From: a bacterium A37T11
GTDB taxonomy: Bacteria; Bacteroidota; Bacteroidia; Sphingobacteriales; Sphingobacteriaceae
Reading direction: 5' to 3'
DNA length: 64,000 nt
NCBI GenBank assembly: GCA_900109895.1
Contig: FOBR01000001.1
Location: 186,001-250,000, forward strand
Shown here: positions 7,998 through 59,609 of the stretch, one piece after another
Layout of the letters: each line of letters begins with the position of its first letter
Position numbering within the stretch: position 1 is the first letter of the stretch
Notes under the pieces: generated by a model
Told to the model about the DNA's origin: nothing
What the model saw: only the letters and a program-made list of their open reading frames with translations
Databases searched by the model: none
Translations under genes and position numbers: made by a program

Positions 7998-8006
7998 TAT
8001 GATCCA

Positions 8007-8423: not shown

Positions 8424-8436
8424 AATTATAGGTATA

Positions 8437-8910: not shown

Positions 8911-8984
8911 GATAATATACTAATTTATAATTTACTATTTATTGATCTTATTTTTAAAACGTTTATATTTTGGCAGCGCACTGC

Positions 8985-9034
8985 AAAAGAAGCAAGACCA
9001 TATTACGATACCGTAATATGGTCTTGCTTCTTTT
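8985..9034 (-). terminator. Strong terminator of the two-component operon
   Basis: A perfect 23-bp inverted repeat (arms 8985-9007 and 9012-9034) with a 4-nt loop begins and ends in A/T runs, so it could act in both directions. It lies 17 bp beyond the response regulator stop codon and separates that operon from greA. Confidence 0.9.
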
Positions 9035-9051
9035 TTACGAAGATAGCTATT

Positions 9052-9747: not shown

Positions 9748-9757
9748 ATGCTATAAT

Positions 9758-22670: not shown

Positions 22671-22693
22671 GGTTTAGCATCCGATAAAAAGGA

Positions 22694-24580: not shown

Positions 24581-24601
24581 AAAAATTCGTTCTGTTTTTG
24601 A

Positions 24602-25945: not shown

Positions 25946-25997
25946 TTCAATATTAACGGTTATACGTATTATATCTTACTTAAAGGTACAATTTCAT

Positions 25998-27236: not shown

Positions 27237-27258
27237 TTATAACTGATATTATATCTAT

Positions 27259-28408: not shown

Positions 28409-28413
28409 GGCTA

Positions 28414-29889: not shown

Positions 29890-29919
29890 ATGCTGTATTT
29901 AATACTTTTAATAATAAGA

Positions 29920-32934: not shown

Positions 32935-32972
32935 CTAAGCTATAAATAAGAAGCGTTATTTCTATTAATCTA

Positions 32973-36198: not shown

Positions 36199-36220
36199 CC
36201 GAATATCTATTTATAGCAGG

Positions 36221-38509: not shown

Positions 38510-38554
38510 GCTAAAGCTTAAAAATTATTTTTAAAATCACTCAAATTTCCTTAT

Positions 38555-40399: not shown

Positions 40400-40446
40400 G
40401 TCAGTTCTTCGTTTAAGTACAACTATCTTTTTATAAAATTCACCAT

Positions 40447-41178
40447 CTAACGCTGTACAAGTCGTGGCGGGGCCATCATTAACCGTTCAATAACATCCGC
40501 CATATATTGAAAAGAATATTTTTTCTTTAAAATAATATGGCGTCCATTGGGATCGCGCGTCCACGTGTCATCGCCATCATCTTTAATGGTAATGGTACCC
40601 CGTTCGTAGTCAAAATAAGTATCTATGCCCGTAACAGCCGCTAAGGCAGCAGTCTGATCATAGCTGGCACGCCCGCCCATTTCATACCGCGAGTTGTCAA
40701 ACTCCAGGATGTCCTGTTTTATTGAAACAGCATACGTATCTTTAACCGGATTACCCTCCGGGGTTTCAGCGGCAATCAATTTATCCCCGGTCCTTATATA
40801 CCTCCCTATTTCGGCGCCACTGCAAATGATTCTTGTAGGCCACTGTTCAAACACGATTTTGGCGCTCGGTAAATCTGCTAATATACCTTTAGCCGCCCCA
40901 ACCGGAATGAACGCCCTGCCGTAGTAACGGTTAATGATATATAACAACCGGGTAGTTTTCTCCATTTTATTGGAAGAAACAGTGGCCAGTATGCGGACAC
41001 GATTGCTCTCTGCCAGCGCATGTAACAACGCCAACGCCCCAACATCATCATAATCCGGCCCTATGTCCGTGTCAAAAATAACGCTTACCCGTTCGGTTAT
41101 ATGGTTGCCTCGCGCGTTGCCAAGGCACACAAGCAACAACACCATCGTCCATATTCCCGTCGTTAATTTAAAGGTCAT
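40447..41178 (-). CDS. Nucleoside hydrolase-like protein with a large internal deletion
   Basis: 243 residues including a signal peptide (1-24). The N-terminal Asp cluster VIFDTDIGPDYDDVGALALLHAL and the C-terminal half (IVFEQWPTRIICSGAEIGRYIRTG, SYDQTAALAAVTG, RDPNGRHIILKKK) match secreted inosine-uridine-type nucleoside hydrolases, which are usually 300-340 residues. After IPVGAAKG (about residue 98) the sequence jumps straight to the segment that normally lies 90-100 residues later, near 40866-40884, with the frame kept. The lost part holds the core strands and the Asn of the active site. It is translationally coupled (ATGA) to the large gene upstream. Probably inactive as a hydrolase. Confidence 0.75.
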   Translation of the reverse strand: MTFKLTTGIWTMVLLLVCLGNARGNHITERVSVIFDTDIGPDYDDVGALALLHALAESNRVRILATVSSNKMEKTTRLLYIINRYYGRAFIPVGAAKGILADLPSAKIVFEQWPTRIICSGAEIGRYIRTGDKLIAAETPEGNPVKDTYAVSIKQDILEFDNSRYEMGGRASYDQTAALAAVTGIDTYFDYERGTITIKDDGDDTWTRDPNGRHIILKKKYSFQYMADVIERLMMAPPRLVQR

Positions 41179-43796: not shown

Positions 43797-43818
43797 ATTA
43801 GTATTATCAATCAGTCAT

Positions 43819-45318
43819 TTAATTCCAATCCGGGTTTTGTACCAGTTGCGGGTTGGCATTGATTTCATCCTGTGGAATTGGAAAAAAGCGATATTTAGAT
43901 TGAATATTTCTCGTAGGATACACATCATTAGTCGCCGTTGGAATTACCGACATATACGTATTCGTTCGAGTCAAATCATACCACCGATCACCTTCAGCAA
44001 ACAATTCCCAAGACCGTTCCTGCAATACAGCAGCAATAAAGTCCTCTCTATTTAATCCAGGAGTCAAGTCCTTTAAACCTGCGCGATGCCGAATAGCATT
44101 TATATAACCGTATGCTTTTGAATCAGCACCATTCAACTGTGCCTCTGCTTCAGCAGCAATCAGATATATATCAGCTAAACGCAGAATCGGAATGTTTCTG
44201 ACAGTGCCTACAGTTGATACTGGATCTTGGTATTTTTTGATTAAAACCGCATTTTTGGTAATAGGGGTAATAGCTGCCATGGGAACCCATTTACCACTTT
44301 TATTCAGATAAGTAGTATCCAATAACCCCCGCCGCTGGTCCTTTGGATCAAACGATTGAAAAAATTTATAATATGCAAACATAGAACCAAATGAGGTTTT
44401 AGCATATTCTACTCCCCCACTACCAGTAGGACCGCAGAGCCCAACTAATTGATGCCCATTTCCCGGAGAGATTGGGTCGCATTCGTAAGACCAGATCATC
44501 TCCTTCCTACTCGCCTCTTTTTGGGCATAATCAAACAGATCGATTACACTTGAAATTAGGGAATAGTTATTTGAGTTGATCACTATTTCGGCTTTTGCCA
44601 ATGCTGTTGACCAATCTTCATTATATAATGCTACTTTGGCATATAATGCGCTAATCGCTTCATTTGAAGGCCTTCCAATGACTACACCTGAAGAAGAAGG
44701 TAATCCGGATATACCTGCACTATCTAAATCACTATATATTTGATTATACACTTCTTTTACTGGACTTTTTAATAAATAGGCATCTTCCTTAGTAGCACTG
44801 GGTGTAACTTTAACGGGCACTTCCCCAAAATTTTTTGTCAATGTCCAAAAATAAAAGGCCCTCAAGAAAAAGGCTTCACCCAGGATCTGCCTTTTACGGG
44901 TATTGTCCATTGATACTCCGGGTAATTTTTGAAGTACCCAATTGGCCTGTTCTATGCCACTATAGCACGAAGTCCAAATTTGTTGAGGTGATTCGCTCAG
45001 CCTCCCCTGACTGCGTTGTACCGTATACGTAGGCTCCAAGGTAAAAAGTGTTAATGAGTTTCTTCCAACAACAGCTCGTGGATAAGCCTGGTCCGCGCTA
45101 AAATCTGATACCAATGTAGCAGCTGGTCCGCCATACATTGAAGGCATCGCACCGTAAGTAGCTAAAAGGCCCTTTTCTGCATCAGATGCTGTCTTATAAA
45201 AAGTTTCGGTAATTATGGAAGAATACACATCTTCATCCAAGGAACAGGAGGCATAGGTCAAACATAATATACCCAACAGATATATTTCTAAGAAAATCTT
45301 TATACGAGCAGATTTCAT
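43819..45318 (-). CDS. susD: RagB/SusD-family outer-membrane lipoprotein (unit A)
   Basis: 499 residues from the ATG at 45318 (MKSARIKIFLEIYLLGILCLTYASC), which gives a clean lipoprotein signal and begins 13 bp after the susC stop; ATGs further upstream would overlap susC. SusD signatures include the TPR-like helices, AEAEAQLNG followed by YINAIRHRAGL, and the C-terminal LFAEGDRWYDLTRTN with VYPTRN...FFPIPQDEINANPQLVQNPDWN (given in parts). SusD proteins cap the SusC pore and bind the glycan. Partner of the susC gene just upstream. Confidence 0.95.
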   Translation of the reverse strand: MKSARIKIFLEIYLLGILCLTYASCSLDEDVYSSIITETFYKTASDAEKGLLATYGAMPSMYGGPAATLVSDFSADQAYPRAVVGRNSLTLFTLEPTYTVQRSQGRLSESPQQIWTSCYSGIEQANWVLQKLPGVSMDNTRKRQILGEAFFLRAFYFWTLTKNFGEVPVKVTPSATKEDAYLLKSPVKEVYNQIYSDLDSAGISGLPSSSGVVIGRPSNEAISALYAKVALYNEDWSTALAKAEIVINSNNYSLISSVIDLFDYAQKEASRKEMIWSYECDPISPGNGHQLVGLCGPTGSGGVEYAKTSFGSMFAYYKFFQSFDPKDQRRGLLDTTYLNKSGKWVPMAAITPITKNAVLIKKYQDPVSTVGTVRNIPILRLADIYLIAAEAEAQLNGADSKAYGYINAIRHRAGLKDLTPGLNREDFIAAVLQERSWELFAEGDRWYDLTRTNTYMSVIPTATNDVYPTRNIQSKYRFFPIPQDEINANPQLVQNPDWN

Positions 45319-45331
45319 GATATTTATGGGA

Positions 45332-48300
45332 TTAAAAGTTAAGCTGGAGTCCAGCAATAAATGAACGAGCTTGAGGATATACCAAATTGTCAATACCTAT
45401 GGCAGTATTAGACCCAGCAAAGCTATTTACTTCAGGATCGTAACCTGAATAATTGGTGATTGTAAACGGATTATTGGCACTCACATAAATGCGAATACTT
45501 TGCAACACTTTGGTAAAAGAGGTAAAGCGGTATCCCAATGTTATATTCCGCATACGTAAATAAGAGCCATCTTCCATGGAATAGTCAGAGATAGGCTGTC
45601 GACCTCCTGGAAATCCGCTAGCATATTGATTATTGTGATTTTCAGGAGTCCATCTATCAACCATACCAGCAAATAGATTCCGCTGCCCCAGCGGATTCTC
45701 AAAGGACAACCTGCTGATGTTATAAATATCGTTCCCATAGGAACCTGATAAGAACAGACTTAAATCAAAATTTTTATAGCTTAAATTGGAAGAGAAGCCA
45801 TAGATAAATTTCGGATTTGGATCACCTGTTATCCTTTGGTCATCGGAATTAATGATATCATCGTTATTAAGATCCTTAACTTTTTGGCCACCTACCCTTC
45901 CATCATAACCAGGGACGATCTCATCAGCACTTTGGTTGATTCCATCAAATACATAGGTTTTAAAAACTCCTAGGGGCTCGCCCACTTTTAACAAGGAATA
46001 GGTATTTATAAAGCGCTCGTTAGTAACACCCCCGTCCAAATCAAGTACTTTATTTTTATTGGCGGTAAAATTAGCTGAAACCGACCATTTAAAGACTCCT
46101 TTAAGGATATCAGCATTGGCGGATAACTCAATACCATGATTTTCTATAGCGGCGAAATTTCCGACCATGGTTGCATACCCAGAAGATAGCGGCAAGGCCT
46201 GAACGTATAAAAGATCATTAGTTTTTTTCTTATAATAATCTGCTACCAGCGAAACACGGTTATCAAAAAAACCAAGGTCAATACCTACATCCGCCTGTTT
46301 GGACCTTTCCCACCTCAGGTCTGGGTTTGCGATTCCCGTAGGTCCTATCCCCGTCAGATAGGTGTTATTTATATTATAACCACCATTTGAAGAGACCAAA
46401 CGAAGAGACTGGTAAGGAGTGATCGCACCTGCATTTCCAGTGATACCATAACTTACGCGAAGCTTTAGATCGGAAATTGCTTTTACATCACTTAAAAAGG
46501 CTTCTTGTTTTATACGCCATGCTACAGCAGCAGCCGGAAAGAATCCGTATTTATGATTTGCACCAAATTTACTTGAACCATCCACACGTCCTGTCAAATC
46601 CAGGAACAATTTATCCTTATAGCCATAGTTAATACGGCCCATGTAAGAATCCAAACGCTCTTTGGTCCTATTGCTGGTTACAGTTCGGTTTAAGGCAAGC
46701 TGTAAGGCCTCGTTTAAGGTGGCATCGTTGGGAAAACCGGTTGCGCTAACCACATTTTGCTTGTACGTTTGCACTTGCGTAGCAAAAAGGCCCGTTAGTT
46801 TCAACGAATGTACTTCATTAAATTTCCTTGTATAGGTCAATAAACTCTCATGCAAAAGGTTGAGGAAATCCTGGTTGTTCTTTGAGCCAGAACCCGAATT
46901 TTCATTAATGTCGGACTTTGCAATGATGGCAATCGGTGAATAATTATCATTCAATTGATTTTGAATATCTGAATTAAACGAAGCACGATAAACTAAACCA
47001 GGGATGATTTCATATTCACCAAAAACATTAATAAGTGTCCGTTTTATGCCGGCTCTTTGCAATATTTCAGTAAAATTAAGTGGGTTGGCTACCTCCCTGT
47101 ACCTTCCGTTTCCCTGTTCCGCAAAGGGAAACAAGGTTCCGTCAGGTCGATATGGCTCAAGTGTCGGAGGAGCACCGATAGCCGCCCCTAGTACACTTCC
47201 GGTCACCACACTTCCATTGTCCAAATCCTGAGATCCTGCATTTATACCGTTATTCACTGAATAGCTGCCTATTATGCTCGACCCAATTTTAAAACGATCG
47301 TTCACTTGGTGGTCTACATTCAGCCGGTATGAATATCTGTTAAAATCTGAATTGACAATAATACCGTCCTGCTTAAAGTAGTTCAGGGATAAGGAAAGTT
47401 GCGTCTTTTCATTTCCCCCCCCAATGCTGAGTTGCTGATTATTCATCGGTGCATTCCTAAAGATGATATTTTGCCAGTTCACTCCCTTACTAAGCGAAGC
47501 AGGGTCCTGATAATAATTATCTTTGTAAATCTCGTTTTCCAGCTGCGCAAACTGCGATGCATCCAGCACGTCCAATTTTTTGCTGGTACTCTGCGTACCG
47601 AAATAGCTTTCTATCTCAATACGTGTAACGCCAGACGCTCCTCGTTTTGTAGTTATTAGCACCACCCCATTGGCCGCCCTAGATCCATAAATGGCAGTTG
47701 CAGAAGCATCCTTCAAAATTTCTACAGATTGAATATCTCCTGGATTTATCGTAGAAAGAGGGCTAACATCATTAATACCACCACTATTTGAAATCTGTAT
47801 ACCATCTACAATATATAGAGGCTCAGAAGTTCCATTAATAGAGTTAGTCCCCCGGATACGCACGCTTACACTTCCACCAGGAGAACCTGAATTCTGGCTA
47901 ACCTGAATGCCGGAGACTCTGGCTTGCAGACCTTGAGCCACATTAGCGACCGGCCGCTGATTAAGATCCGCAGCTTTGACCGAGGCAATAGATCCTGTTG
48001 TTTCAATTTTGCGCTGGGAACCATATCCTACTACCACAATTTCATTGAGTACTTCATTGCTTTCATGCAGTTTCACAGCTAGGGTGTTTTCCCCGGGACT
48101 CACCGGAACGGTCAATGATGTGTAGCCAACAAGCGAAAACACCAATGAACTGCCTGCTTGCGGAACCTCAATGCTGAAATTTCCGTCCTTCCCTGTTGTG
48201 GCGGATGCCTTGGATCTGCCCGTCACTGTAATTGTCACGCTTGGAAGAGGCGCTCCTGTAGATTCATTGACTACAGTACCAGTCACTTGCCGTTTTTCCT

Positions 48301-48370
48301 GAGCTTGTATGAATCCAAAGCTAAATACTGCCATTAAAAAAGATAAAATAATTTTAAGTTTACTTTTCAT
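45332..48370 (-). CDS. susC: SusC/RagA-family TonB-linked outer-membrane transporter (unit A)
   Basis: 1012 residues. A signal peptide is followed by a carboxypeptidase-regulatory-like domain (GTVVNESTGAPLPSVTITVTG, about 30-105), a plug with NEIVVVGYGSQRK and the SusC signature SVEILKDASATAIYGSRAANGVVLITTKRG, and a 22-strand barrel ending in LQLNF. It imports oligosaccharides through the outer membrane with energy from TonB-ExbB-ExbD. It starts unit A. Its promoter carries a TGGT-repeat site shared with the other susC in this window. Confidence 0.97.
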   Translation of the reverse strand: MKSKLKIILSFLMAVFSFGFIQAQEKRQVTGTVVNESTGAPLPSVTITVTGRSKASATTGKDGNFSIEVPQAGSSLVFSLVGYTSLTVPVSPGENTLAVKLHESNEVLNEIVVVGYGSQRKIETTGSIASVKAADLNQRPVANVAQGLQARVSGIQVSQNSGSPGGSVSVRIRGTNSINGTSEPLYIVDGIQISNSGGINDVSPLSTINPGDIQSVEILKDASATAIYGSRAANGVVLITTKRGASGVTRIEIESYFGTQSTSKKLDVLDASQFAQLENEIYKDNYYQDPASLSKGVNWQNIIFRNAPMNNQQLSIGGGNEKTQLSLSLNYFKQDGIIVNSDFNRYSYRLNVDHQVNDRFKIGSSIIGSYSVNNGINAGSQDLDNGSVVTGSVLGAAIGAPPTLEPYRPDGTLFPFAEQGNGRYREVANPLNFTEILQRAGIKRTLINVFGEYEIIPGLVYRASFNSDIQNQLNDNYSPIAIIAKSDINENSGSGSKNNQDFLNLLHESLLTYTRKFNEVHSLKLTGLFATQVQTYKQNVVSATGFPNDATLNEALQLALNRTVTSNRTKERLDSYMGRINYGYKDKLFLDLTGRVDGSSKFGANHKYGFFPAAAVAWRIKQEAFLSDVKAISDLKLRVSYGITGNAGAITPYQSLRLVSSNGGYNINNTYLTGIGPTGIANPDLRWERSKQADVGIDLGFFDNRVSLVADYYKKKTNDLLYVQALPLSSGYATMVGNFAAIENHGIELSANADILKGVFKWSVSANFTANKNKVLDLDGGVTNERFINTYSLLKVGEPLGVFKTYVFDGINQSADEIVPGYDGRVGGQKVKDLNNDDIINSDDQRITGDPNPKFIYGFSSNLSYKNFDLSLFLSGSYGNDIYNISRLSFENPLGQRNLFAGMVDRWTPENHNNQYASGFPGGRQPISDYSMEDGSYLRMRNITLGYRFTSFTKVLQSIRIYVSANNPFTITNYSGYDPEVNSFAGSNTAIGIDNLVYPQARSFIAGLQLNF

Positions 48371-48382
48371 AATATATTTATT

Positions 48383-48403
48383 ATTGGTATGGTCTGGTCT
48401 GGT
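48383..48403. promoter_or_regulatory. TGGT-repeat operator at the unit A susC promoter
   Basis: On the plus strand the site reads ATTGGT followed by ATGGT, CTGGT, CTGGT, that is tandem 5-bp repeats of nTGGT. All 21 bases are identical to 58364-58384. It lies between the predicted transcription start and the susC ATG, 12 bp before the start codon, 15 bp from the -7 box. A bound protein would block transcription or translation. Confidence 0.75.
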
Positions 48404-48418
48404 AACTTAACCACGATG

Positions 48419-48451
48419 CAAGTTTATGGACTTTTATCTTATAATCCAAAA
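48419..48451 (-). promoter_or_regulatory. Promoter of unit A (susC)
   Basis: On the minus strand TTTTG (48447-48451), 20 nt, then TAAACTTG (48419-48426), one mismatch from TAnnTTTG. The start of transcription is expected near 48413, just before the operator repeats. Confidence 0.65.
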
Positions 48452-48795
48452 TAATTTAAAAAAAATAATTAAGAATTATTATACTCTATGATTTAGTAAT
48501 TGATAGTGGTATATGTACATTAGGACTGCTCATTATGCTATCAAATTATATCTCCCTACGCCAAGTCTTAAATAATAATATTCTTTGATCCCCCCTACCC
48601 ATGGTTGCCTTCCGATCCAAATTGCTGGGATAACGTTGTATATGCAGACTTCACCTCCTGTTCGTATCTCTTCAGCATCCTGGAAAATCCCACTTATCTT
48701 TGCCGGCCAACCCGCAATAAACCGCAACGTATTTCACTGGTCAAGCTAACTTGACATCCGGTGACCGATAGTATTCTCCCTGCCACCTCTGTGCT
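48452..48795 (-). pseudogene. Decayed gene remnant, downstream part
   Basis: No intact gene is present, but the minus strand holds coding-like pieces in several frames: a WQGEYYRSPDVKLA stop PVKYVAVYCGLAGKDKWDFPG stretch (about 48680-48785), and an ending MLKRYEQEVKSAYTTLSQQ...NHG with a stop at 48595-48597. These follow the truncated secreted ORF at 48796-48969 and look like one gene broken by frameshifts and stops. The part below about 48530 is plain AT-rich promoter region. Confidence 0.4.
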
Positions 48796-48969
48796 TCACC
48801 AATCCGTTTCCGTCATCAATAAACACACCCAGGAATTGGGCTGATCCACATCCCAAATCCATTTGGGAGGTAAGCCATTGGATTCGCCAAAATATACACC
48901 TGGTAAATTTGCCGCCCCAGCAAACCCACATACACCCCATAAACATATCAATAAAACCTTAATCTTCAT
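48796..48969 (-). pseudogene. Truncated secreted ORF at the end of unit B
   Basis: 57 codons starting inside the end of the esterase gene (ATG 48967-48969, overlapping its stop by 11 bp, a typical coupled start). It has a clear signal peptide (MKIKVLLICLWGVCGFAGA) followed by about 38 residues with PPKWIWDVDQPNSWVC, then a premature TGA. A different frame stays open across the end (FLGVFIDDGNGLVKHRGG), suggesting a frameshift. The original family was not recognised. It could be a real small secreted protein, but the coding-like debris after it favours a broken gene. Confidence 0.5.
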
Positions 48970-51046
48970 GTACTATCCTGCCTTTCACCAATACCTTGGC
49001 CAAATAAATATCCCTGTGTGCATACTTATCCGGATGCGCTGTAATATCGCCCTGCTGAGCAGGCCCCAAAATCCCCTGCTTATCCGGTATTTCCCGGTCG
49101 ATACTAAAAGTAACAACATGCCGGCCCGGCGATGTCTGCAAAACAAAAAATTGGCCCCGATAGCGGTTATTACAATTGACATTGAACCGGTTGAATATCG
49201 GGCTGCCGCTATCATCTTCCCGGTACCGAACCCCTTTTTCCTGTTTCCATCCCACTTCCTTACCATCCAATTTTACACGCAGCTGCCCTACTTCCGGCCC
49301 GCCAATATCGAACAAGCCAATGGCATCCCCTTCAAAAGAAACCGTAAAAGCATCCCCTGCGTTGCCAGCCGCCATTACCGAAGGGAACCAAGCGGAAAAT
49401 TGAGTCAGCTTACCCGAAACCGGGATCTCTTTCCATCCATCCGAAAATTTTGCCGCCTTCATGGGATCCTCCCAATCCGCATCTTCCCAATTATCCGCAT
49501 AATATGGTGGGGGTAAATCATCGCCAAGCCCACTTTTCTCATTTTGCTGCAGCAGGGCCGCTTTCATCATACGGCCAATTGACCCTGCATACAAGTTCCC
49601 GCCCCTCTCCAGCGGGTGCACGCCATCTTGCGTAAAGACCAGGCGACTGGGAAGAGAAGCAGGATCACCTTTTGGCACTAATTTTCCGTATTGCAGCAAC
49701 AAGGCCGGTAACAAGGCCATGTGCACCGAAGGTATCTGATAATGGTCGGCCAATTTTTCCAGCTCAGCGATGTGAGGCAATACCCTTCCTTGCCCATAGT
49801 ACGCTAACTGTCCAGCCGTAGCAGCATACAAAAAACAAATATCTGTACGGCTATCCGCTTTTTTTATTTTTCGGATAATGCCTTCCATCCCCTCTGGAAA
49901 CCCACCGTTTACCGCAAATTCCACAAACACCACATCCGGATGTCTGGTCAATAGCTGATCGGAAACCCGGCAGGCCCCCAGATCCGCATCCGTCCCGGGT
50001 ATACCCGCAGAAATTTCGGAGATATCGTTCTTTGGAAAGATCCTGCTGATCACCGCCGTTGCCTGCCTCCGGTACCGGTCATCCACCTGGGTAATGGAGC
50101 CTCCCAAGTAAGCCACCCTAAGTTCCTTCTGCTTTTCCGCTTTATCCAGAAAGTTGAGAAACCCGTCCCTGAGATTGAATTCACGTACCGCACCGTGCTT
50201 CAAGGGCGTAGAAGCAGATGCCGCGCGCCTGCCCAATTTGAGTTTATTGATCACGGAATTTGCTACCGCATCCCCCACTATATTCAGGGCGTCCTGGTTG
50301 TAATGTATTTCATCGCGCATCATGCCCTTCTTCAGGAACAGATTGGCATCATCATAGCCAATATAAACACCTGCCATCCGCTGCGCCAGCTCTCCCTGCA
50401 CTTTCCTTACCAGGTCAAAACCCTTTACCGGATGATCTTTATAATAACCCGTCTTTACGATGAAAAAAGGAACATCGGTTTGTATTGCCTGTCTAAAACG
50501 GCCGATAACAGAACGCAGGCTTTCTTCATATTCTTTGGCATCCATCTGCCCCGCATTGATCGCGTTTGCGTCTCGTTCGCCCTGTATCCAGAGAATTCCC
50601 GACAAAGGAAGCCCGGTTTTTTTCATCGCCGCGTTCACTTTCTTTACTGCCGCCGGAAAAAGATAGCCCATTTCTGCCCATGTCCCCGAACCTGCCAGTT
50701 CAGCCTTTTCGTGACAAGAACTGCCGTCACGTGCGGCCGCCACCAAAATAACGGTATCGCCGGTCATCTGGTAAAACGACCGGCAAAAGGCAGGCCAGGC
50801 ACTTCCTGACATCGCCTGCTGCAATTTCAATTCATTTACCCCTACAGGATCGGCTACAGGCTTCAAAGAATCTGCCAGGCAAACATATTCAAAGGCCGTT
50901 CCCGGCAATACCACGGGAGAAAGGGAAGCATCCCCTTTACCTACCGCATTACTTTGTCCGGCTATTAAAAATAAATACTTCATTGCCTGTACCCTGCAAA
51001 CCATGCTATTCAACAATAGCAAACATATGATCCCCTTGCATCTCAT
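48959..51046 (-). CDS. Two-domain secreted SGNH/sialate-esterase-like carbohydrate esterase
   Basis: 695 residues with a signal peptide (1-21). The first SGNH domain (about 23-270) is of sialate O-acetylesterase type: Ser32 in FLIAGQSNAVG, ILWIQGERDA, and Asp245/His248 in DEIHYNQ. The second (about 295-490) has Ser317 in YLGGSITQ, VFVEFAVNGG, and Asp474/His477 in QDGVHPLE. A beta-sandwich (about 500-690) ends the chain. Both catalytic sets look complete, so two acetyl or acyl groups may be removed from one glycan. It lies in unit B after the two surface lipoprotein genes, separated by 171 bp. Confidence 0.88.
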   Translation of the reverse strand: MRCKGIICLLLLNSMVCRVQAMKYLFLIAGQSNAVGKGDASLSPVVLPGTAFEYVCLADSLKPVADPVGVNELKLQQAMSGSAWPAFCRSFYQMTGDTVILVAAARDGSSCHEKAELAGSGTWAEMGYLFPAAVKKVNAAMKKTGLPLSGILWIQGERDANAINAGQMDAKEYEESLRSVIGRFRQAIQTDVPFFIVKTGYYKDHPVKGFDLVRKVQGELAQRMAGVYIGYDDANLFLKKGMMRDEIHYNQDALNIVGDAVANSVINKLKLGRRAASASTPLKHGAVREFNLRDGFLNFLDKAEKQKELRVAYLGGSITQVDDRYRRQATAVISRIFPKNDISEISAGIPGTDADLGACRVSDQLLTRHPDVVFVEFAVNGGFPEGMEGIIRKIKKADSRTDICFLYAATAGQLAYYGQGRVLPHIAELEKLADHYQIPSVHMALLPALLLQYGKLVPKGDPASLPSRLVFTQDGVHPLERGGNLYAGSIGRMMKAALLQQNEKSGLGDDLPPPYYADNWEDADWEDPMKAAKFSDGWKEIPVSGKLTQFSAWFPSVMAAGNAGDAFTVSFEGDAIGLFDIGGPEVGQLRVKLDGKEVGWKQEKGVRYREDDSGSPIFNRFNVNCNNRYRGQFFVLQTSPGRHVVTFSIDREIPDKQGILGPAQQGDITAHPDKYAHRDIYLAKVLVKGRIVHED

Positions 51047-51217
51047 TTCGCTAAATAAACTTAACCTTTACACCTATTTTAAATTGACCCAGACCCTAAG
51101 TAAACACTAGTTTATCGGCTTTTTTTTGCTGAACGGTTTTCACAGCATAGCATTTATTTCATCACGAGACAATCCGATTTGATAAACCTACTTAAGCCCC
51201 CCTTATAAAGTTTTTCC

Positions 51218-51907
51218 TTACAAATGCAAGCTTTGATAATTTGTGTAAAACGTATCTATTGCATTTGAATCTGGCTTAAATAAGGTCCTGTATTGAAGGG
51301 AACCATCCAGCAGTTCATAATTGATCCTGGTAGTATCTTCGGTAATAGCCCTTTTAATATGTTGTTCTATAGCCGCTACATCTTTAAACATAAGCTCTAT
51401 GCCAACGCCGCCACGTACATTGCCCGGATCCCAAATAATCATAGGCTTGCCCAGATCATCGAGCTTAAACGCCTTGTATACACGGTTAAATAAGGTAGCC
51501 CTGTATTCATCGCCATATACCGTTCCGATAGTATCTGATTTTACAGATCTGTGCCCACCTAGATCATAGGTATAATATTCAAATGTATATGTTCCCTCCG
51601 CTATCGGATCGATTATTGAACTCACCGTATCTAACTGCTTTTTAAGGCTTATTGGTACAATTAAGGAATCGGCACCATCATTCCAATATACAGCATATTT
51701 AGCATAATTTGTTCCTGAAAGAATTAAAGATACCTTGGCCCGTTTATCACCGGGAGAAATCCACGCAGAATCTGGTATTTTTCCATACCTGAACTCACCA
51801 TCTTTTAAAAATTCACGGTAGGTGTCATCCATTTTATGGCAAGACACCCATAGTTCACCCAGTACCAAGATAAATATGGTTAGTTTGTAATTAAATATTC
51901 TTATCAT
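51218..51907 (-). CDS. DUF4998-type surface lipoprotein
   Basis: 229 residues. A lipoprotein signal (MIRIFNYKLTIFILVLGELWVSC) is followed by an immunoglobulin-like beta domain with DTYREFLKDGEFRYGKIPDSAWISPGDKRAKVSLILSG (given as landmark; first part to residue 47), the pattern of DUF4998. These occur in utilisation loci beside SusD and DUF5000-type proteins and are thought to bind glycans at the cell surface. It lies 12 bp after the DUF5000-type gene. Confidence 0.82.
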   Translation of the reverse strand: MIRIFNYKLTIFILVLGELWVSCHKMDDTYREFLKDGEFRYGKIPDSAWISPGDKRAKVSLILSGTNYAKYAVYWNDGADSLIVPISLKKQLDTVSSIIDPIAEGTYTFEYYTYDLGGHRSVKSDTIGTVYGDEYRATLFNRVYKAFKLDDLGKPMIIWDPGNVRGGVGIELMFKDVAAIEQHIKRAITEDTTRINYELLDGSLQYRTLFKPDSNAIDTFYTNYQSLHL

Positions 51908-51919
51908 TATTCTTAAGTT

Positions 51920-53125
51920 TTACTGAATTGTCTGTCCCCAAAAAGTTAATTCCAGCACCCAACATGCCCCTAGCGCCGAATTTGCTGGTGAAGCAAAGGT
52001 TGAAATGACCTTGAACCTGAGATAACGGACTTCTGGTGCATTAATTGGAACTGAAAATTCCATCCCATTGGCCGCAGCTTCTTTATCTTCGGCTGTTATT
52101 GTAGTACCCGGTGCTGACGGTTTAATCACTTCATAAGCTCCTAATTGTTCCCAACCATCATAACTACCATCAGGCGCGGGACTATTGCTACCCCACAATT
52201 CAAACTTCTTTACATTCCCACCAGAAAATTCACGACCGTCATGCACACCCCAAACCCGAAATCTACTTAATTTTCCTTTCAAGCCCATATCAAATGAGAA
52301 CCATTTAGGAAAAGGGTTATTTTGATTAGAAAATCCACCATTGTTAACTACATTTATGTTATCCCATAAGCCCGCAATCCCCCAAGCACTTACAGCATCT
52401 CCAGGTAGTGAAAGCACTTTAAAATTTGTTTTCACAAACTGCTCCTCAAACAAAGGTGTTAAATTTTTCACCACGGTATCTGAATTATTCCCCCAGCGGT
52501 CTGTCACATATACGCCAAATGTTGTCGGCAGGGAAGGGAGCCCACGGACTGGAAATACACCTGCCGGTCTACTGGTGTAATATCGATCATAATCCGTCCA
52601 GTCTCCCAAGCTATCCTTAACCAACACTGAAATAGAGAGGTCTGCCTTATCATTATTTACAAAATTGACTGTGATCCCCCCAAAATCCTCGATATATGTG
52701 AGATTCTTATATACCTGTAAAACCGGAGCAATTTGTGGCCTTATGCCAACTTTCACAGGATCGGATTGATTACCGCCTCGATTTACCACTGTCAAGACAA
52801 CATCATGGTTCAGCGTATCGCTAAATCCTTGAACGAGCAGAGAGTTGTCATACAACGAAGATACCGCCTGTTCCTTCACACCCGGCCTTATTTCATAGTC
52901 TGCCGTTACATACAAAATATCTGTACTATTAGGCAAACTATAGGTAATCTTTGCACCTCCTGGTTGATTTATTACTTGGACGTCAGTCACCACAGCCGGT
53001 TTCTCGCCAGCCCCCTCCAATGGTTTCCTTAAGTCGCTTTCCTTACAAGCATCCATTCCCAAACAGTACATGACTAGCAGTATCCATTGGATTGATTTTC
53101 TGTTAAATTCTTTATAAAAGCACAT
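51920..53125 (-). CDS. DUF4959/DUF5126/DUF5000-type glycan-binding surface lipoprotein
   Basis: 401 residues from the ATG at 53125 (MCFYKEFNRKSIQW...DAC lipobox); an in-frame ATG at 53155 would begin 1 bp after the susD stop and is an alternative. Three parts follow: a fibronectin-like domain with VVTDVQVINQPGGAKITYSLP (about 45-140), a second beta domain (about 140-245), and a C-terminal discoidin-like domain with KWFSFDMGLKGKLSRFRVWG and RYLRFKVISTF. This trio is typical of surface glycan-binding proteins next to SusCD. Coupled to the unit B susD. Confidence 0.88.
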   Translation of the reverse strand: MCFYKEFNRKSIQWILLVMYCLGMDACKESDLRKPLEGAGEKPAVVTDVQVINQPGGAKITYSLPNSTDILYVTADYEIRPGVKEQAVSSLYDNSLLVQGFSDTLNHDVVLTVVNRGGNQSDPVKVGIRPQIAPVLQVYKNLTYIEDFGGITVNFVNNDKADLSISVLVKDSLGDWTDYDRYYTSRPAGVFPVRGLPSLPTTFGVYVTDRWGNNSDTVVKNLTPLFEEQFVKTNFKVLSLPGDAVSAWGIAGLWDNINVVNNGGFSNQNNPFPKWFSFDMGLKGKLSRFRVWGVHDGREFSGGNVKKFELWGSNSPAPDGSYDGWEQLGAYEVIKPSAPGTTITAEDKEAAANGMEFSVPINAPEVRYLRFKVISTFASPANSALGACWVLELTFWGQTIQ

Positions 53126-53156
53126 ATGCTTAGGATCTAAATTCATAAATAACATG

Positions 53157-55067
53157 TTACCAGCCCGGATTCTGAACCAGATTATTATTAACGATGGTAT
53201 TCTGCTCCTTCACCGGCCAAAGATAATCTCTACTTTTAAAGGTTTTACCAAATAAGACCAAGGGTTTATAGTAATAGGCCGCCTCTGTTTGCTTCACATC
53301 CCACCCAAGAACCGGCCCACTCATCACTGAGGTCGCCTCTTTCCAACGCACCAGGTCCCAATACCGCCCTCCTTCAAAAGCCATCTCTATCAAGCGCTCT
53401 TGGTGAATGATCTTCCGAAGGCCTTCTTTACTTTGATAGTCTGTGGGATGCTTAGCAAATTGCGTCCACGATTGTTCTACCGTTGGCAGCCCCGCCCTGT
53501 CTCGCACCTTATTTATCCATTCCAACGCTTCGGCTTTCGAGCCGGCTTCATTCAAAGCCTCTGCATAATATAGGTAGAGGTCTGCAAGCCGTATGATAGG
53601 CCAAGGATAAGACTGTATTGCATACATTCCATTGGTCTGTAAAACATTCAGGAAATTGACTAGTTTTTTTACATAATAACCGGTTATCGAATACTCCCCA
53701 CCACCCCTCACGCCGGAATACTGGCCGGACTTCCCTTCCACGTGCCAGGTACTACTCTCATCATATTTACCTTGTCCATACCAGATACCTCCATCAAATC
53801 CCATATCGGCATAGAACCTGGGTTCCCGGTCAAAATTGAGGGCGGCCGTCGTATATCCCGATTGAATAAACAGCTTATTTGCATCGTTAGCCACCTTGAG
53901 CCCATACCTACCACCATAGTCCCAGGTTTTATCTTCTTCTATGGGCACTCCATTTTTGGTATAGAATAATTCTGCAATTTTCATCGTAGGTGCATACTCT
54001 CCATATGGCCTGGTCGCACCATTGGTTATACTCACCGAAGGGTCGGTATAGGGCTGTGCATATTGCTGCAGTGAGCCTACCATGCTATTGCTGGCGCCCC
54101 AGATAAGCTCCGCATTCCATTTGTCGCAGATAGCATTGCGCAAGTCCATCTGCAATTTTATCTCAGGCCCTATTTTATAGGTATTGACAAGCGGATTAAA
54201 GTGATACAGTTCGTGCCCCTGTGATAATGAAAAATCAATGGCCTGCTTACACGCGTCTGCCGCATACTGCCACCTGCTCGGGTCGGCCACCGTATTAAAG
54301 AGCACAACTCCCCGGTTATCCTTAAAATTTGAATATTCGGTATTCCCATTGAAAAGAGGGCTGGCAAATGTAGTGAGAATCCTAGCTTTTAATGCCAAGG
54401 CTATAGACTTGTCAATACGGCCCAGCTCAGAAATCCGGTCTTCAATTTGGTCTGGCAGTCCGGGAAGCGATTTATCAATTAGCCTTGTTATAAAATTAAA
54501 ACACGAATCTACCGGCTGTCGGTAGATGTCTACCTCCCCCACACCCGCAGAGATGGGTAAGTTTTCGTCGATGATCGGCATTGGGCCGTACATCCGTACA
54601 AGGAACCAGTGATAGTAAGCCTTCAAAAAGGTTACTTCCGAGATCCATCGGGTCTTTTCTTCCTCTTGCATGTCTGGTACCTTCCCAATATTTGCCAAAA
54701 ACGTATTGCAATCGCGTATCGCCTGAAACAGCGGTTTGCCCCCATTAGTTCCACTCATATAGTCAAGATAGGGGTTCACCACGTTTTGATTGCCGCGGGC
54801 CACCTCCCAATTGCTAGGAGGCGTCCCATAAAATGCTTCAGTAGTTGGATAAAAAAACCAGATCTCATCACCACTGAGTAATGCTGGGTTGGCATTCCAA
54901 CTCGCATCTGAAGGAAGATACGAATAGCAAGTGAATAAGTATTTTTCAGCCTGGCTTCTTAAGCGAAATGCATAATCGACTGTCGCCACATTATCTGGAA
55001 CCACATCAAGATAACTACAACCTGTCATTAATCCTATAAGGGCTATCGCCAATAAATTCTTTTTCAT
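53157..55067 (-). CDS. susD: RagB/SusD-family outer-membrane lipoprotein (unit B)
   Basis: 636 residues, longer than the unit A SusD. The lipobox is IGLMTGC near residue 17. Characteristic parts are WISEVTFLKAYYHWFLVRMYGPMPII, LYYAEALNEAGSKAEALEWINKVRDRAGLP, IHQERLIEMAFEGGRYWDLVRWK and the final LVQNPGW. It forms the lid of the SusC encoded 18 bp upstream and binds the substrate glycan. The two SusDs in the window are clearly not close copies, so the two units probably handle different parts or forms of a glycan. Confidence 0.95.
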   Translation of the reverse strand: MKKNLLAIALIGLMTGCSYLDVVPDNVATVDYAFRLRSQAEKYLFTCYSYLPSDASWNANPALLSGDEIWFFYPTTEAFYGTPPSNWEVARGNQNVVNPYLDYMSGTNGGKPLFQAIRDCNTFLANIGKVPDMQEEEKTRWISEVTFLKAYYHWFLVRMYGPMPIIDENLPISAGVGEVDIYRQPVDSCFNFITRLIDKSLPGLPDQIEDRISELGRIDKSIALALKARILTTFASPLFNGNTEYSNFKDNRGVVLFNTVADPSRWQYAADACKQAIDFSLSQGHELYHFNPLVNTYKIGPEIKLQMDLRNAICDKWNAELIWGASNSMVGSLQQYAQPYTDPSVSITNGATRPYGEYAPTMKIAELFYTKNGVPIEEDKTWDYGGRYGLKVANDANKLFIQSGYTTAALNFDREPRFYADMGFDGGIWYGQGKYDESSTWHVEGKSGQYSGVRGGGEYSITGYYVKKLVNFLNVLQTNGMYAIQSYPWPIIRLADLYLYYAEALNEAGSKAEALEWINKVRDRAGLPTVEQSWTQFAKHPTDYQSKEGLRKIIHQERLIEMAFEGGRYWDLVRWKEATSVMSGPVLGWDVKQTEAAYYYKPLVLFGKTFKSRDYLWPVKEQNTIVNNNLVQNPGW

Positions 55068-55085
55068 AATTTAAACCTTAATCCA

Positions 55086-58000
55086 TTAAAAAGATGCCTG
55101 AACTCCAAGGTTAATGACGCGCTGTACCGGATATGCCAATCCATTGCCCGCCATCTCTACGTCCCATAACTTAAAAGAACTCCAAGACAAAAGGTTTGTT
55201 CCATTAGCATATATTCTTAGTTTTTCTAAGTAAATTTTTTTGGTTTGCTTTTCTGGTAATGTAAACCCGATTTCTGCTGACTTTAATCGCAAAAATGTAC
55301 CATCCCGCATGAACCAAGTACTACTCTGTGAATTATTTGGATTTACAGTCGTACTTAAGCGCGGCCACAAGGCATAGGGATTGCGATTGCTTTCTGACCA
55401 GTGATCATCAGCATAAGCTTGCAATAGTTGATTTTTAAGTTTTCTTCCTGTATTTGGCTCTACGCTGGTCGCAAAGGGGGACGTAGAAGCCACTTCAATC
55501 CAAAAAGATTCTTGCGCCAAACCCTGGAAGAAGCAGGAGACATCAAAACTCTTATAGCCTACCGACGCCCCAAAACCATAGATGATATTGGGAGAGGTAG
55601 GATAACCGATCGGCACCTGGTCCAGCGTAGTTATCTTCCCGTCCTCATTCACATCACGATATTTAATATCGCCGCCACGTGTCTGTTGACCAAAGTTCTG
55701 TGTAGGTGAATTAGCTACCTCGGCATCATCTACAAACAACCTTTCTGCCAGATAGCCCCAATTTTGCGATAACGGATAGCCCACATGCGATTTCCAGGGG
55801 GCATTTGCATAATTAGGTTCTTCGTACACCGAAAAATTGCTGAGCGCATACGTAAAGTTGGCTCTTCCCTGAATCCAAAATCCATTGTTAAAAAACTTAG
55901 AATAGTCAACCGAGGCATCGATCCCTTTGCCTTCTGCCACTCCTACATTGGCCTTAGGAACCGAGTTGATCTTAGGATCCGTACTCGTACTTAGTCCAAG
56001 AGAAACTGGAATATTTGTTCGATCCATTAATATATTGGTTCGCTTTTCCTTCCAGAAATCCACAATAAAATTGACATTATTAAATAAGCTCATATCCATC
56101 CCTATATTGGTTTTAAATGATTTTTCCCAGGTGATCAAGGGATTGTCATACCTCCTCACCGTCACCCCATTATCATGATAAGTATTGTCAAACCCAAAAG
56201 AAGCACCCTTTGCCGGATCATCCATATTTACGTCAGACAGATAAAAGAATCGGTCTGACTCAGAACCTATCGCATCGTTACCGATAATCCCATAGGTACC
56301 ACGCAATTTGAGGTTAGTGACCACTTTGGAAAGTGGCTTCCAAAACGATTCATTAGATACTTGCCAGGCCACACCGGCAGAAGGAAAGAAACCAAACCGC
56401 TGTGTTTTATAAAACCGCTCTGATCCGTTATAACCAAAATTAAACTCGGCAAAATATTTACTGTTTAGTGCATACGTAAACCGCCCGGACAACCCAATAT
56501 TCCGATGTGGCAGCGAGGTTTGCAGCGTTCCTGCATTTCCGCTTAGCTGGTTTTGCATAAGAAAGACCAACAGGCCGCTGATACCATGTATTTTGCCAAA
56601 CGTATGGCTATAATTCAAGGTGCTCTGAATGTAAGTAGTGGCCATTACCTGTTTGGGGCCTTCGGTATAATCCAGGTATTCCGTACCAGTATTTTCGTTG
56701 ATAGACTCCAAGGTATACGTATTAGCCAATTTATCATACGAACCTATCTGATACCAATAGGGCTTATAGGAACGTGTCACGTCAAAATACGAAGAACGCG
56801 TAATGTTAAACAACGCCTGCAGATTAAGGCCTTCAGTTATAAAATTAAGATCCTGTTTTACATCAAACTGGGCAAGCATTAAACTACGGCTATAATCCTT
56901 ATACCCCTTCACCATCTCTGCATATGGATTAACAACTTGATCTGGCGTATTTCCAAACAATACATGCTCTACATATTGATGGTCTGCATCCTTCGGGTAA
57001 AAAGCAGGGAAACTAACTGGATCACTTCTGATGGACAATTTGTAATATTCGGCACCACCGTCAATAGGGCCACTATAATCGTCAAATGTCCCATATAATT
57101 TCACTCCGATAATCGTTGATTTGGTTACGTTTATATCCACATTTGAACGTAATCCATATGATTTCAAATCGATATTACTGTTAAAATTATTTCGCTTATC
57201 CACTTTAAGAATCCCGTTATCCTGGTTAAAAGTCCCGGCCAGGTAATAACGCGCCACACTCCCGCCGCCACTGATATTTAGGTTACCCCGTTGATTTTGT
57301 GTATAATCCTTAAATAACATGTTCATCCAATCAACTGCCGGATACACATAAGGATTTTTTCCGGCTATGGTATTGTCAATTTTAGACTGAAAATAAGGGG
57401 TCTCGCCAGTGGGATTCCGGGTCAGCACAGCTTCATTATTTAGCTGCATATAAGTGGTCGGATCTGCTAGCTCAACGTTTTTAGTTGGTGCAGAAATTGA
57501 ATTTTCAATTCTGAATGATAGCTTTGCTTTACCTTCCACACCCTGTTTTGTTGTGATCAAGATGATGCCATTTGCACCACGGGCACCATATAATGCGGTT
57601 GACGCTGCATCCTTTAAAATAGAAAAACTGGCTATGTCATCGATCTGCATCCGTGCAAGATCCGTAGAGGTTAATTCTATACCATCCACTAGTATTAGTG
57701 GATCTTTCTTATAACCAAACGTCGTGACACCCCTAATAAAGAAATCGGCATTGTCCTGTCCAGGCTCGCCACTTCGCTGGTAGGCTACTACGCCGGCTAA
57801 ACGTCCGGCCAACGCTGTCGTCAGATTACTGGAAGGCACCTTCAGCTCCTGCGGGTTAATAGTTGTTACAGAACCCACTACTTCTTTTTTTTTCTGCGTA
57901 CCGAACGCCACTACCACCACATCATCCAACTGGCTGGATGAGGGCAAAAGCACCACCCTAAAATCCTTTTTAGCACCCACATCTATTTGCTGTTCGTCAA

Positions 58001-58238
58001 ATCCCACCATCGTAAACACCAGGACTGCCTTAGGTGGCACATCCAATATAAATTTCCCGTTTGCATCCGTAGTGGTACCGATACTTTTTTTGTCTTTTAC
58101 AACCACGGAAACGCCAGAAAGAATGGCCCCGGTACTATCTACTACCGTACCATATACGCTTTGCTGGGCAAATGAAGCTAACGGTGAGAAAATCCAAATC
58201 ACTATCAGCCACAAATTCAGTTTAATAAATTTGCACAT
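55086..58238 (-). CDS. susC: SusC/RagA-family TonB-linked outer-membrane transporter (unit B)
   Basis: 1050 residues. A signal peptide, a carboxypeptidase-regulatory-like domain (about 28-105, VYGTVVDSTGAILSGVSVVV), a plug with DVVVVAFGTQKKKEVVGSVT and SFSILKDAASTALYGARGANGIILITTKQG, and the barrel with the final VQASF are all present. It starts unit B, divergent from the GntR-type regulator. Its 330-bp upstream region contains a promoter, a TGGT-repeat operator identical to that of unit A, and an unusually long leader of about 155 nt. Confidence 0.97.
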   Translation of the reverse strand: MCKFIKLNLWLIVIWIFSPLASFAQQSVYGTVVDSTGAILSGVSVVVKDKKSIGTTTDANGKFILDVPPKAVLVFTMVGFDEQQIDVGAKKDFRVVLLPSSSQLDDVVVVAFGTQKKKEVVGSVTTINPQELKVPSSNLTTALAGRLAGVVAYQRSGEPGQDNADFFIRGVTTFGYKKDPLILVDGIELTSTDLARMQIDDIASFSILKDAASTALYGARGANGIILITTKQGVEGKAKLSFRIENSISAPTKNVELADPTTYMQLNNEAVLTRNPTGETPYFQSKIDNTIAGKNPYVYPAVDWMNMLFKDYTQNQRGNLNISGGGSVARYYLAGTFNQDNGILKVDKRNNFNSNIDLKSYGLRSNVDINVTKSTIIGVKLYGTFDDYSGPIDGGAEYYKLSIRSDPVSFPAFYPKDADHQYVEHVLFGNTPDQVVNPYAEMVKGYKDYSRSLMLAQFDVKQDLNFITEGLNLQALFNITRSSYFDVTRSYKPYWYQIGSYDKLANTYTLESINENTGTEYLDYTEGPKQVMATTYIQSTLNYSHTFGKIHGISGLLVFLMQNQLSGNAGTLQTSLPHRNIGLSGRFTYALNSKYFAEFNFGYNGSERFYKTQRFGFFPSAGVAWQVSNESFWKPLSKVVTNLKLRGTYGIIGNDAIGSESDRFFYLSDVNMDDPAKGASFGFDNTYHDNGVTVRRYDNPLITWEKSFKTNIGMDMSLFNNVNFIVDFWKEKRTNILMDRTNIPVSLGLSTSTDPKINSVPKANVGVAEGKGIDASVDYSKFFNNGFWIQGRANFTYALSNFSVYEEPNYANAPWKSHVGYPLSQNWGYLAERLFVDDAEVANSPTQNFGQQTRGGDIKYRDVNEDGKITTLDQVPIGYPTSPNIIYGFGASVGYKSFDVSCFFQGLAQESFWIEVASTSPFATSVEPNTGRKLKNQLLQAYADDHWSESNRNPYALWPRLSTTVNPNNSQSSTWFMRDGTFLRLKSAEIGFTLPEKQTKKIYLEKLRIYANGTNLLSWSSFKLWDVEMAGNGLAYPVQRVINLGVQASF

Positions 58239-58363
58239 ACGCCTTTTAGATTAATTGGACTAACGTAATAGTTGAACAACATAGGCAGGAAACTGCTTTC
58301 AGCATTAGGAAACAAAAGCACCCGCAAATAATAATTAGTTTTCATTATTATCATAATTTAGAA
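58239..58363 (-). promoter_or_regulatory. Long 5' leader of the unit B susC mRNA
   Basis: 125 bp separate the operator from the susC start codon, against 12 bp in unit A. The leader is AT-rich and holds short inverted repeats (AATAAT with ATTATT near 58328-58352, GAAA with TTTC near 58289-58300). No known riboswitch was recognised. Confidence 0.35.
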
Positions 58364-58384
58364 ATTGGTATGGTCTGGTCTGGT
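58364..58384. promoter_or_regulatory. TGGT-repeat operator at the unit B susC promoter
   Basis: All 21 bases match the unit A site at 48383-48403. The distance to the -7 box is again exactly 15 bp, and the short stretch between them is partly conserved (ACG, one base, TGCAA). It is a direct repeat of 5-bp units rather than the palindrome usual for GntR proteins. Confidence 0.75.
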
Positions 58385-58399
58385 GCCAGAATCACGGTG

Positions 58400-58431
58400 C
58401 AATTATATATACTTATATTTAAATAACAAAA
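58400..58431 (-). promoter_or_regulatory. Promoter of unit B (susC)
   Basis: On the minus strand TTTTG (58427-58431), 19 nt, then TATAATTG (58400-58407), one mismatch from TAnnTTTG. It is laid out like the unit A promoter, with the operator just downstream. Confidence 0.65.
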
Positions 58432-58523
58432 TTTATTTTAAAAATTTTTTACTAAATCGTGTTTATTGATATAAATACACATATAACTAATAATGACACC
58501 CAGAGCTTATTTTTTTTATATTG

Positions 58524-58560
58524 CTCTGGTTTGGTTTGTTCAGCAATATCCTTACTTTTG
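58524..58560 (+). promoter_or_regulatory. Promoter of the regulator gene with overlapping operator-like repeat
   Basis: TTTG (58530-58533), 19 nt, then an exact TAnnTTTG (TACTTTTG, 58553-58560) lie 8 bp before the regulator ATG. The -33 box is embedded in CTCTGGTTTGGTTTGTT (58524-58540), a looser version of the TGGT repeats at both susC promoters, which suggests autoregulation. Confidence 0.65.
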
Positions 58561-58568
58561 AATAATAT

Positions 58569-59609
58569 ATGGATAAGATCATATCAACACCAACATTTAA
58601 TGCAGCAGAAGTGGCAGACGGCCCTACTAATCGCTTAAAATACCTGCAGCTGGTTGACTACATCACTAACCTCATTGAAACTGACCAGTTACATATCAAT
58701 GACCGGTTGCCGTCGCTTAAGCAACTGGAGCATCAGTTCAGCATGAGTAAGGAAACTGTGCTAAAAGGATTAAACCATTTGCTTGAGAAGGGGATTATTG
58801 AGTCGGTTTACCGAAAAGGATATTATGTACGTAAAAAGTCAGTGGACCATAACTATCGTATATTCCTGTTACTGGACAAGATGAACGTTATGCGTGACAA
58901 ACTTTACCACACCTTATTTGAGCAACTGCGTGATGTTGCGGACGTGGATGTTTACTTCCATCATCACAATTTCAAGGTGTTTGAAAACCTCATTAAGGAA
59001 AATCTGAACAGCTATACCCACTTTGTGCTCACTACATTCTTGAAAGAAGATCCCTCCGCCGCCATCAACCTCATTCCTCCCCAAAAAAGAATTGTGGTTG
59101 ATTACGACCAACCCGGCCTTGAAGGGGATTATACCACCATTTTCCAGGATTTCCAATCAGACATTTATGATGCCCTAACAGAACTGCAGCCACGCCTTAA
59201 AAAATATAAACAACTGATCCTGGTAGTACCTCCTGAAGCATTCCATGCCAAATTTGTCGTTGATGGATTCCTGCATTTCTGCCAGGAGCATACCTACAAA
59301 TACGTCATTCAGCACGAGGTAACTGCCGATAATTTCAAAAAAGGTAATGTATATATTACCTTTAGCCGGTATGATACTGATGACGTAAGCCTCATTAAAC
59401 TAGCCAGAAAAATGAATTACACCTTGGGGAAAGAAATTGGACTCATTTCTTACAATGACACCGATGTTAAAGAAATCCTGGAAGGCGGCATTACCGTTAT
59501 TTCGTCTGATTTTGAAGAAATGGCACGTCAGGTTGCCGCAACCATCACCAACAAACAAACACTCAGGCAGCGTAACCCTACCAAGGTCATCCTTCGAAAC
59601 TCATTATAA
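58569..59609 (+). CDS. GntR-family regulator with a sugar-binding-like C-terminal domain
   Basis: 346 residues. The N-terminal winged helix-turn-helix (about 22-90) shows YITNLIETDQLHINDRLPS, the recognition helix region MSKETVLKGLNHLLEKGII and the wing YRKGYYVRKK, all GntR-type. The rest (about 95-330) resembles a LacI-type periplasmic-binding fold (YRIFLLLDKMN, KQLILVVPPEAFHAKFVVDGFL, IGLISYNDTDVKEIL), the same combination as Bacteroides monosaccharide regulators such as FucR. It is divergent from unit B and its own promoter carries a version of the operator. I infer that a sugar from the glycan is its ligand and that it controls both units. Confidence 0.88.
   Translation: MDKIISTPTFNAAEVADGPTNRLKYLQLVDYITNLIETDQLHINDRLPSLKQLEHQFSMSKETVLKGLNHLLEKGIIESVYRKGYYVRKKSVDHNYRIFLLLDKMNVMRDKLYHTLFEQLRDVADVDVYFHHHNFKVFENLIKENLNSYTHFVLTTFLKEDPSAAINLIPPQKRIVVDYDQPGLEGDYTTIFQDFQSDIYDALTELQPRLKKYKQLILVVPPEAFHAKFVVDGFLHFCQEHTYKYVIQHEVTADNFKKGNVYITFSRYDTDDVSLIKLARKMNYTLGKEIGLISYNDTDVKEILEGGITVISSDFEEMARQVAATITNKQTLRQRNPTKVILRNSL

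Follow-up and report, generated by a model that had tools for sequence, protein, structure and literature searches.

Head-to-tail TGGT arrays as probable operators by which a GntR-type, probably sugar-sensing repressor controls several nutrient-uptake clusters and its own gene

The sites of the Bacillus subtilis regulator AraR are palindromic. Direct-repeat sites have been described for the GntR-type regulators NagQ, FarR and GabR, with the words TGGTATT for NagQ and ATACCA for GabR (PMC4494728), and for Escherichia coli NanR, a member of the FadR subfamily whose operator (GGTATA)3 provides a precedent for several GntR dimers binding cooperatively to direct repeats (PMC8012715). Here we analyse a 64-kb stretch of the genome of the Sphingobacteriaceae bacterium A37T11 (assembly GCA_900109895.1, contig FOBR01000001.1, positions 186,001 to 250,000; hereafter the window), in which a 21-base element, ATTGGTATGGTCTGGTCTGGT, is present twice, at 48383-48403 and 58364-58384, in the predicted leaders of two susC genes. 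Judging from the sequence comparisons reported below, these elements are very probably operators of the GntR-type regulator encoded at 58569-59609, which would read head-to-tail TGGT words every 5 bp and most likely act as a repressor. A sugar-sensing repressor of this type appears to switch several nutrient-uptake clusters together with its own gene, and the protein is best read as an AraR-like chimera of GntR and LacI type, a repressor that acts on itself and on a local regulon of several operons.

The 21-mer is the sole direct repeat of its length in the window, and its two copies are the only exact ones in the entire 5.1-Mb genome, which also holds one match with three mismatches and of no evident meaning. 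The sequence confirms both copies, as reported in a first-pass annotation of this DNA, and it agrees with the geometry described there: on the minus strand, TTTTG-20-TAAACTTG at the 48-kb site (operator A) and TTTTG-19-TATAATTG at the 58-kb site (operator B) lead, after exactly 15 nt in either case, into the array. Three nTGGT units had been counted; the array in fact has four TGGT units. This position relative to the promoter is conserved: of 47 target sites, 39 have a TAnnnTTG box that ends 5-20 nt before the array, with at most one of the 47 in any other bin. At the target genes, the array follows the -7 box at a distance of 5-16 nt, and its sense strand reads ACCA. The only other repeated stretch in the window is a pair of exact copies of about 23 nt, closely spaced and in inverted orientation, at 8985-9034 (AAAAGAAGCAAGACCATATTACG).

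The words of these arrays follow one another with strict spacing. Across 55 dereplicated regions, 111 TGGT-TGGT pairs are 5 bp apart (null 0.22), 75 are 10 bp and 27 are 15 bp apart, and not a single pair has a distance of 6-8 bp. Inverted TGGT/ACCA pairs have no spacing peak in the same regions and do not form a palindromic operator of the AraR style; TGGTTTGGTTTGGTTTGGT contains no inverted half-site. The strict 5-bp spacing and the lack of inverted partners thus bear out the earlier view of a direct repeat instead of a GntR palindrome. Many lineages have a degenerate middle word between perfect words 10 bp apart (e.g. TAGT-TGGT-TGGA-TGGT-TGCT); gntR-side arrays have their perfect words next to each other. 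With at least two head-to-tail words at its promoters, the system would, judged by sequence, belong to the functional class of direct-repeat GntR repressors.

The arrays accompany a particular clade of regulators. Our ortholog set comprised 29 proteins with 56-74% identity from 301 genomes of the family, plus the window's own copy, and 28 of the 30 genes are preceded by a TGGT array scoring at least 13/16, a score reached by 1 of 300 shuffled sequences. Seventeen paralogs (about 33-37% identity) have no such array, their upstream scores being 11 or lower. The array-bearing regulators carry SKET in the helix-turn-helix (HTH) and YRKG in the wing, the array-less paralogs SRDT and PGKG. In a second, partly overlapping collection of 62 named loci (from Olivibacter, Parapedobacter, Pedobacter, Sphingobacterium, Niabella, Sinomicrobium and others), 60 have TGGT arrays that lie outside coding sequence or at the start of a gene, the two exceptions being Bacteroides loci. 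Arrays of at least 14/16 in such positions number 67, compared with 0 for GTTG, 0 for TGTG and 1 for GTGT; permuted units served as controls because TGGT reads identically backwards, which voids a reversed-pattern control, and the TTGG and GGTT controls were contaminated, since TGGTTTGGTTTGG contains both. Orthologs from genomes sampled later have arrays in nine of nine cases.

The same association is seen at the genome level. A search of 26 genomes for the 19-mer array gave 21 perfect arrays in 12 of the 14 with the regulator, all on the contig of the regulator and within about 30 kb; the remaining two have one-mismatch arrays beside it, and the 12 genomes without the regulator have no perfect array. 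In several genomes, one regulator is accompanied by two to four array-bearing promoters nearby. Those perfect arrays whose surroundings were read stand before a gene and carry ACCA on its sense strand, the distal ones preceding further operons. A Pedobacter genome has three more arrays, one of them before a gene that resembles an FAD-dependent oxidoreductase, as judged by its first residues, and this gene type also occurs in the window's first unit. Collectively, arrays that follow the regulator across genera, are missing near its paralogs and, where perfect, are confined to regulator-bearing genomes strongly support the link between the GntR protein and both sites that the first-pass annotation had proposed. 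A chance repeat is ruled out by the ortholog arrays, the 5-bp spacing peak, the restriction to regulator-bearing genomes and the status of the 21-mer as the sole direct one in the window. Random scattering of the motif is ruled out as well: the five other genome matches at 14/16 and the other perfect three-unit matches all lie within coding genes.

The first-pass annotation overlooked a third, degenerate array, operator C, which is located between site B and gntR, 28 nt before the gntR start. Its TTTG, together with the -7 box 19 nt farther on, forms TTTG-19-TACTTTTG, a consensus Bacteroidota promoter. Arrays on the gntR side are also present in many orthologous regions, and in several genera they hold the -33 TTTG 18-20 nt before TAnnTTTG. 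Their sense strand reads TGGT, opposite to the targets. The start codon of gntR is situated just 8 nt behind its -7 box (58553-58569), so that the gntR mRNA is probably almost leaderless. This orientation bears on the idea that the ACCA repeat acts in the RNA of the susC leader, through a small RNA or a bound protein, and not as a DNA operator. Although target genes have the array within their predicted leader, with ACCA on the sense strand, we regard a role in RNA as extremely improbable: at gntR, the reversed sense and the position over the -33 box, which would not be transcribed from the gntR promoter, argue for a DNA site, and the array tracks a clade of DNA-binding proteins.

Several points weigh against an operator of head-to-tail TGGT words. 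Binding, repression, ligand and stoichiometry are all predicted, and repression, as opposed to activation, is read solely from the position of the sites. Operator C scores just 14/16, a value equalled at five other places in the genome, all five inside coding sequence, and the gntR-side array supplies the canonical -33 TTTG in only 17 of 53 loci. Two Bacteroides orthologs with the SKET helix (Bacteroides congonensis and an uncultured Bacteroides; loci L143 and L144, around 7595-10984) lack a TGGT array even though the regulator is 62% identical and an FAD-oxidoreductase homolog lies directly upstream on the same strand; a search for other 5-bp arrays at these orthologs gave no convincing result. 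In 17 of the 55 dereplicated regions, finally, the array is of a degenerate form that includes GTCTRGAC, a sequence similar to the core of the classical GntR palindrome. The right regulator might accordingly bind a classical palindrome (GT-N4-AC) within the array, the direct repeat being incidental, and since GTCTRGAC matches the published HutC-type core GTMTAKAC (PMC4494728), we keep the palindromic reading for the lineages that carry it. As an overall explanation it is unlikely: GTCTRGAC never occurs in the 22 regions with three consecutive perfect TGGT units, the window's included, and inverted pairs lack a preferred distance, whereas direct pairs favour 5, 10 and 15 bp.

The claim that the flanks of the two susC sites differ stands in part. 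They have diverged around an identical array, but they retain a likeness: over the 70 nt that precede arrays A and B, the alignment score is 23.5, which 1 of 8000 comparisons with AT-rich control segments reaches. This resemblance beyond the array gives the two promoters the look of copies that have drifted apart, and a duplicated promoter that has diverged except for the array is our best inference. The window's far susC (45332-48370) shares 74% identity with the susC adjacent to gntR in Olivibacter and 65-72% with its counterpart in other relatives, including Parapedobacter; the window's near susC (55086-58238) has no homolog of at least 40% at any of the compared relatives' loci. For this reason, the second susCD unit (48959-58238) is probably an insertion that separates gntR from the 48-kb susC, its ancestral target. 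The identical 21-mers could then be mere remains of the duplication or of a recombination crossover from the arrival of this 10-kb unit, without a regulatory role; the missing counterpart of the unit near orthologous regulators, the orthology of the far susC with their adjacent susC and the likeness of the promoters beyond 21 nt all fit such an origin. Duplication is a likely source of one 21-mer copy, yet as a full account it is very improbable, as the same type of array occurs at orthologous promoters in other genera that lack such a duplication and at further promoters elsewhere, and as diverged flanks around an identical array imply selection on the array. The second susCD unit under an identical operator would illustrate how a locus gains uptake genes while keeping one switch.

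The predicted regulator has the architecture of an AraR-type GntR-LacI chimera. Its N-terminal winged HTH matches PF00392 with 36.7 bits (cut-off 27), which places it in the GntR superfamily. An AlphaFold2 model built with 37 relatives (pLDDT 85.8) has a disordered stretch at residues 1-22 and a visible HTH and wing, behind which comes a domain whose top Foldseek matches are LacI-family proteins (E about 1e-12), in keeping with the GalR/LacI-type ligand domain of the AraR subfamily. The match to Pfam Peripla_BP_3 (E 8e-05) is slightly below the cut-off of that family, and no NCBIfam model matches the regulator at its cut-off.

The mechanism we favour is repression. At the two susC units, the regulator would occupy the DNA immediately past the promoter and hinder initiation or early elongation; at gntR, binding to the array would exclude RNA polymerase, since this array carries the -33 element, and thereby bring about autoregulation. 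A sugar or oligosaccharide derived from the substrate of the locus would bind to the LacI-like domain and release the regulator. As 5 bp correspond to half a helical turn, alternate words (1 and 3, 2 and 4), 10 bp apart, would lie on the same face of the DNA, and two dimers on opposite faces are a plausible arrangement. SusR-like regulators and hybrid two-component systems (HTCS) activate. If the array were likewise an activator site, the regulator would turn the susC units on, as these proteins do in Bacteroides, and they too use direct repeats at sugar loci (PMC3878776). We consider activation quite unlikely at this locus, as an array that follows the -7 box at the targets and covers the -33 box at gntR is expected to block polymerase and not to recruit it, and as the HTCS and SusR repeats are spaced by about 21 bp and by 67 or 77 bp and belong to unrelated protein families.

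Beyond repression itself, a tentative proposal, which may well prove wrong, is that the clade of GntR-LacI chimeras has swapped the palindrome for a contiguous 5-bp head-to-tail array bound by dimers on opposite faces in alternating register, and that the word changes with the recognition helix. SKET would go with TGGT and, in one relative, SKST with TGTT: at locus L224 (7178-7200), an array of TGTT words with a 5-bp period covers the -33 box in the same place, and the sister GntR protein there is 50% identical to the window's. The only other SKST relative found (L225) has no such array, and the joint change of word and helix is therefore a possible lead. If true, it would provide a natural series of operators. 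The layout also poses the structural question of how a two-fold symmetric dimer reads repeats that are half a helical turn apart. For nutrient-uptake loci of Sphingobacteriaceae and related Bacteroidota, sequence comparison over several genera allows an operator, its regulator and a regulon to be named.

The genes of the locus are listed in Table 1. In the first unit, the 243-residue nucleoside-hydrolase-like open reading frame (ORF) matches just the first 65 of 297 positions of the Pfam model; it is possibly truncated, or else divergent. Positions 21621-34259, beside the sugar locus, hold cytochrome, molybdopterin/Fe-S, COX1, COX2 and COX15-like genes, which resemble a cluster of alternative complex III and an oxidase.

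Table 1. Predicted operators, promoter elements and genes of the locus (window coordinates)
Feature	Position	Strand	Remarks
Operator A	48383-48403	-	Four nTGGT units, sense ACCAGACCAGACCATACCAAT; predicted leader of susC 45332-48370; 16/16, exact copy of operator B
-7 box TAAACTTG of 48-kb susC promoter	48419-48426	-	Ends 15 nt before array; TTTTG 20 nt farther upstream
Operator B	58364-58384	-	21 nt identical to operator A; predicted leader of susC 55086-58238
-7 box TATAATTG of 58-kb susC promoter	58400-58407	-	Ends 15 nt before array
Operator C	58522-58540	+	Degenerate array TGCTCTGGTTTGGTTTGTT, 14/16; carries gntR -33 TTTG (58530-58533)
gntR -7 box TACTTTTG	58553-58560	+	19 nt after TTTG inside operator C
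GntR-type regulator	58569-59609	+	Winged HTH (25-87) and LacI/periplasmic-binding-protein-like sensor domain; Pfam, AlphaFold2, Foldseek
susC (TonB-linked receptor), probable ancestral target	45332-48370	-	Ortholog of susC directly beside gntR in relatives
First unit, genes downstream of susC	34534-45393	-	Pfam; homologs near orthologous regulators
susD, first unit	43819-45393	-	
GH127/GH88-like protein, first unit	41175-43796	-	
Short nucleoside-hydrolase-like ORF, first unit	40447-41178	-	
GH97, first unit	38555-40399	-	
FAD-dependent oxidoreductase, first unit	36221-38509	-	
Sodium:solute symporter, first unit	34534-36198	-	
Second unit	48959-58238	-	Between gntR and susC 45332-48370
susC, second unit	55086-58238	-	
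susD, second unit	53157-55067	-	
DUF4959/5126/5000 protein, second unit	51920-53155	-	
DUF4998 protein, second unit	51218-51907	-	
SASA-type esterase, second unit	48959-51046	-	

Among the described systems, AraR of B. subtilis differs in its palindromic sites from the direct repeats found here. It shares with the window's regulator the GntR winged HTH, a sugar sensor of the GalR/LacI type (PMC4494728) and the control of sugar-polymer genes, which is predicted here; the match of the HTH to the AraR structure 4egy is weak (E 0.0018). NanR resembles the system in its GntR winged HTH, in several short direct repeats that contain GGT and in the repression of sugar uptake, which is predicted here. 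It has a FadR-type sensor and a hexamer repeat, whereas the window combines a LacI-like sensor with a 5-bp period and up to four contiguous nTGGT units; neither a FadR-type C-terminal domain nor GGTATA repeats are found in this regulator and its array. NagQ, FarR and GabR demonstrate that GntR proteins can read direct repeats, but they belong to other subfamilies (HutC, MocR) and use longer words, and no contiguous 5-bp arrays are described for them in PMC4494728. The Bacteroides regulators FucR (BT1272) and ManR (BT2103) are, like the protein studied here, GntR-family regulators of sugar utilization in Bacteroidota (PMC3878776), a likeness of family and role, and they differ in that they were reported for monosaccharide operons (PMC3878776). 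SusR-like proteins and AraC-type HTCS, whose repeats have a spacing of about 21 or 67-77 bp (PMC3878776), do not fit a locus whose adjacent regulator is a GntR protein and whose array has a period of 5 bp. The suggestion of the first-pass annotation that this would be an unusual binding mode is supported in one respect and qualified in another: we found no description of the 5-bp head-to-tail layout, or of an AraR-type chimera combined with such a contiguous array, in the open-licence literature searched, but direct-repeat GntR operators as such are familiar from NanR and NagQ (PMC8012715, PMC4494728). Direct-repeat GntR sites are thus already known, and what appears to be new, within that literature, is the contiguous 5-bp array paired with an AraR-type chimera.

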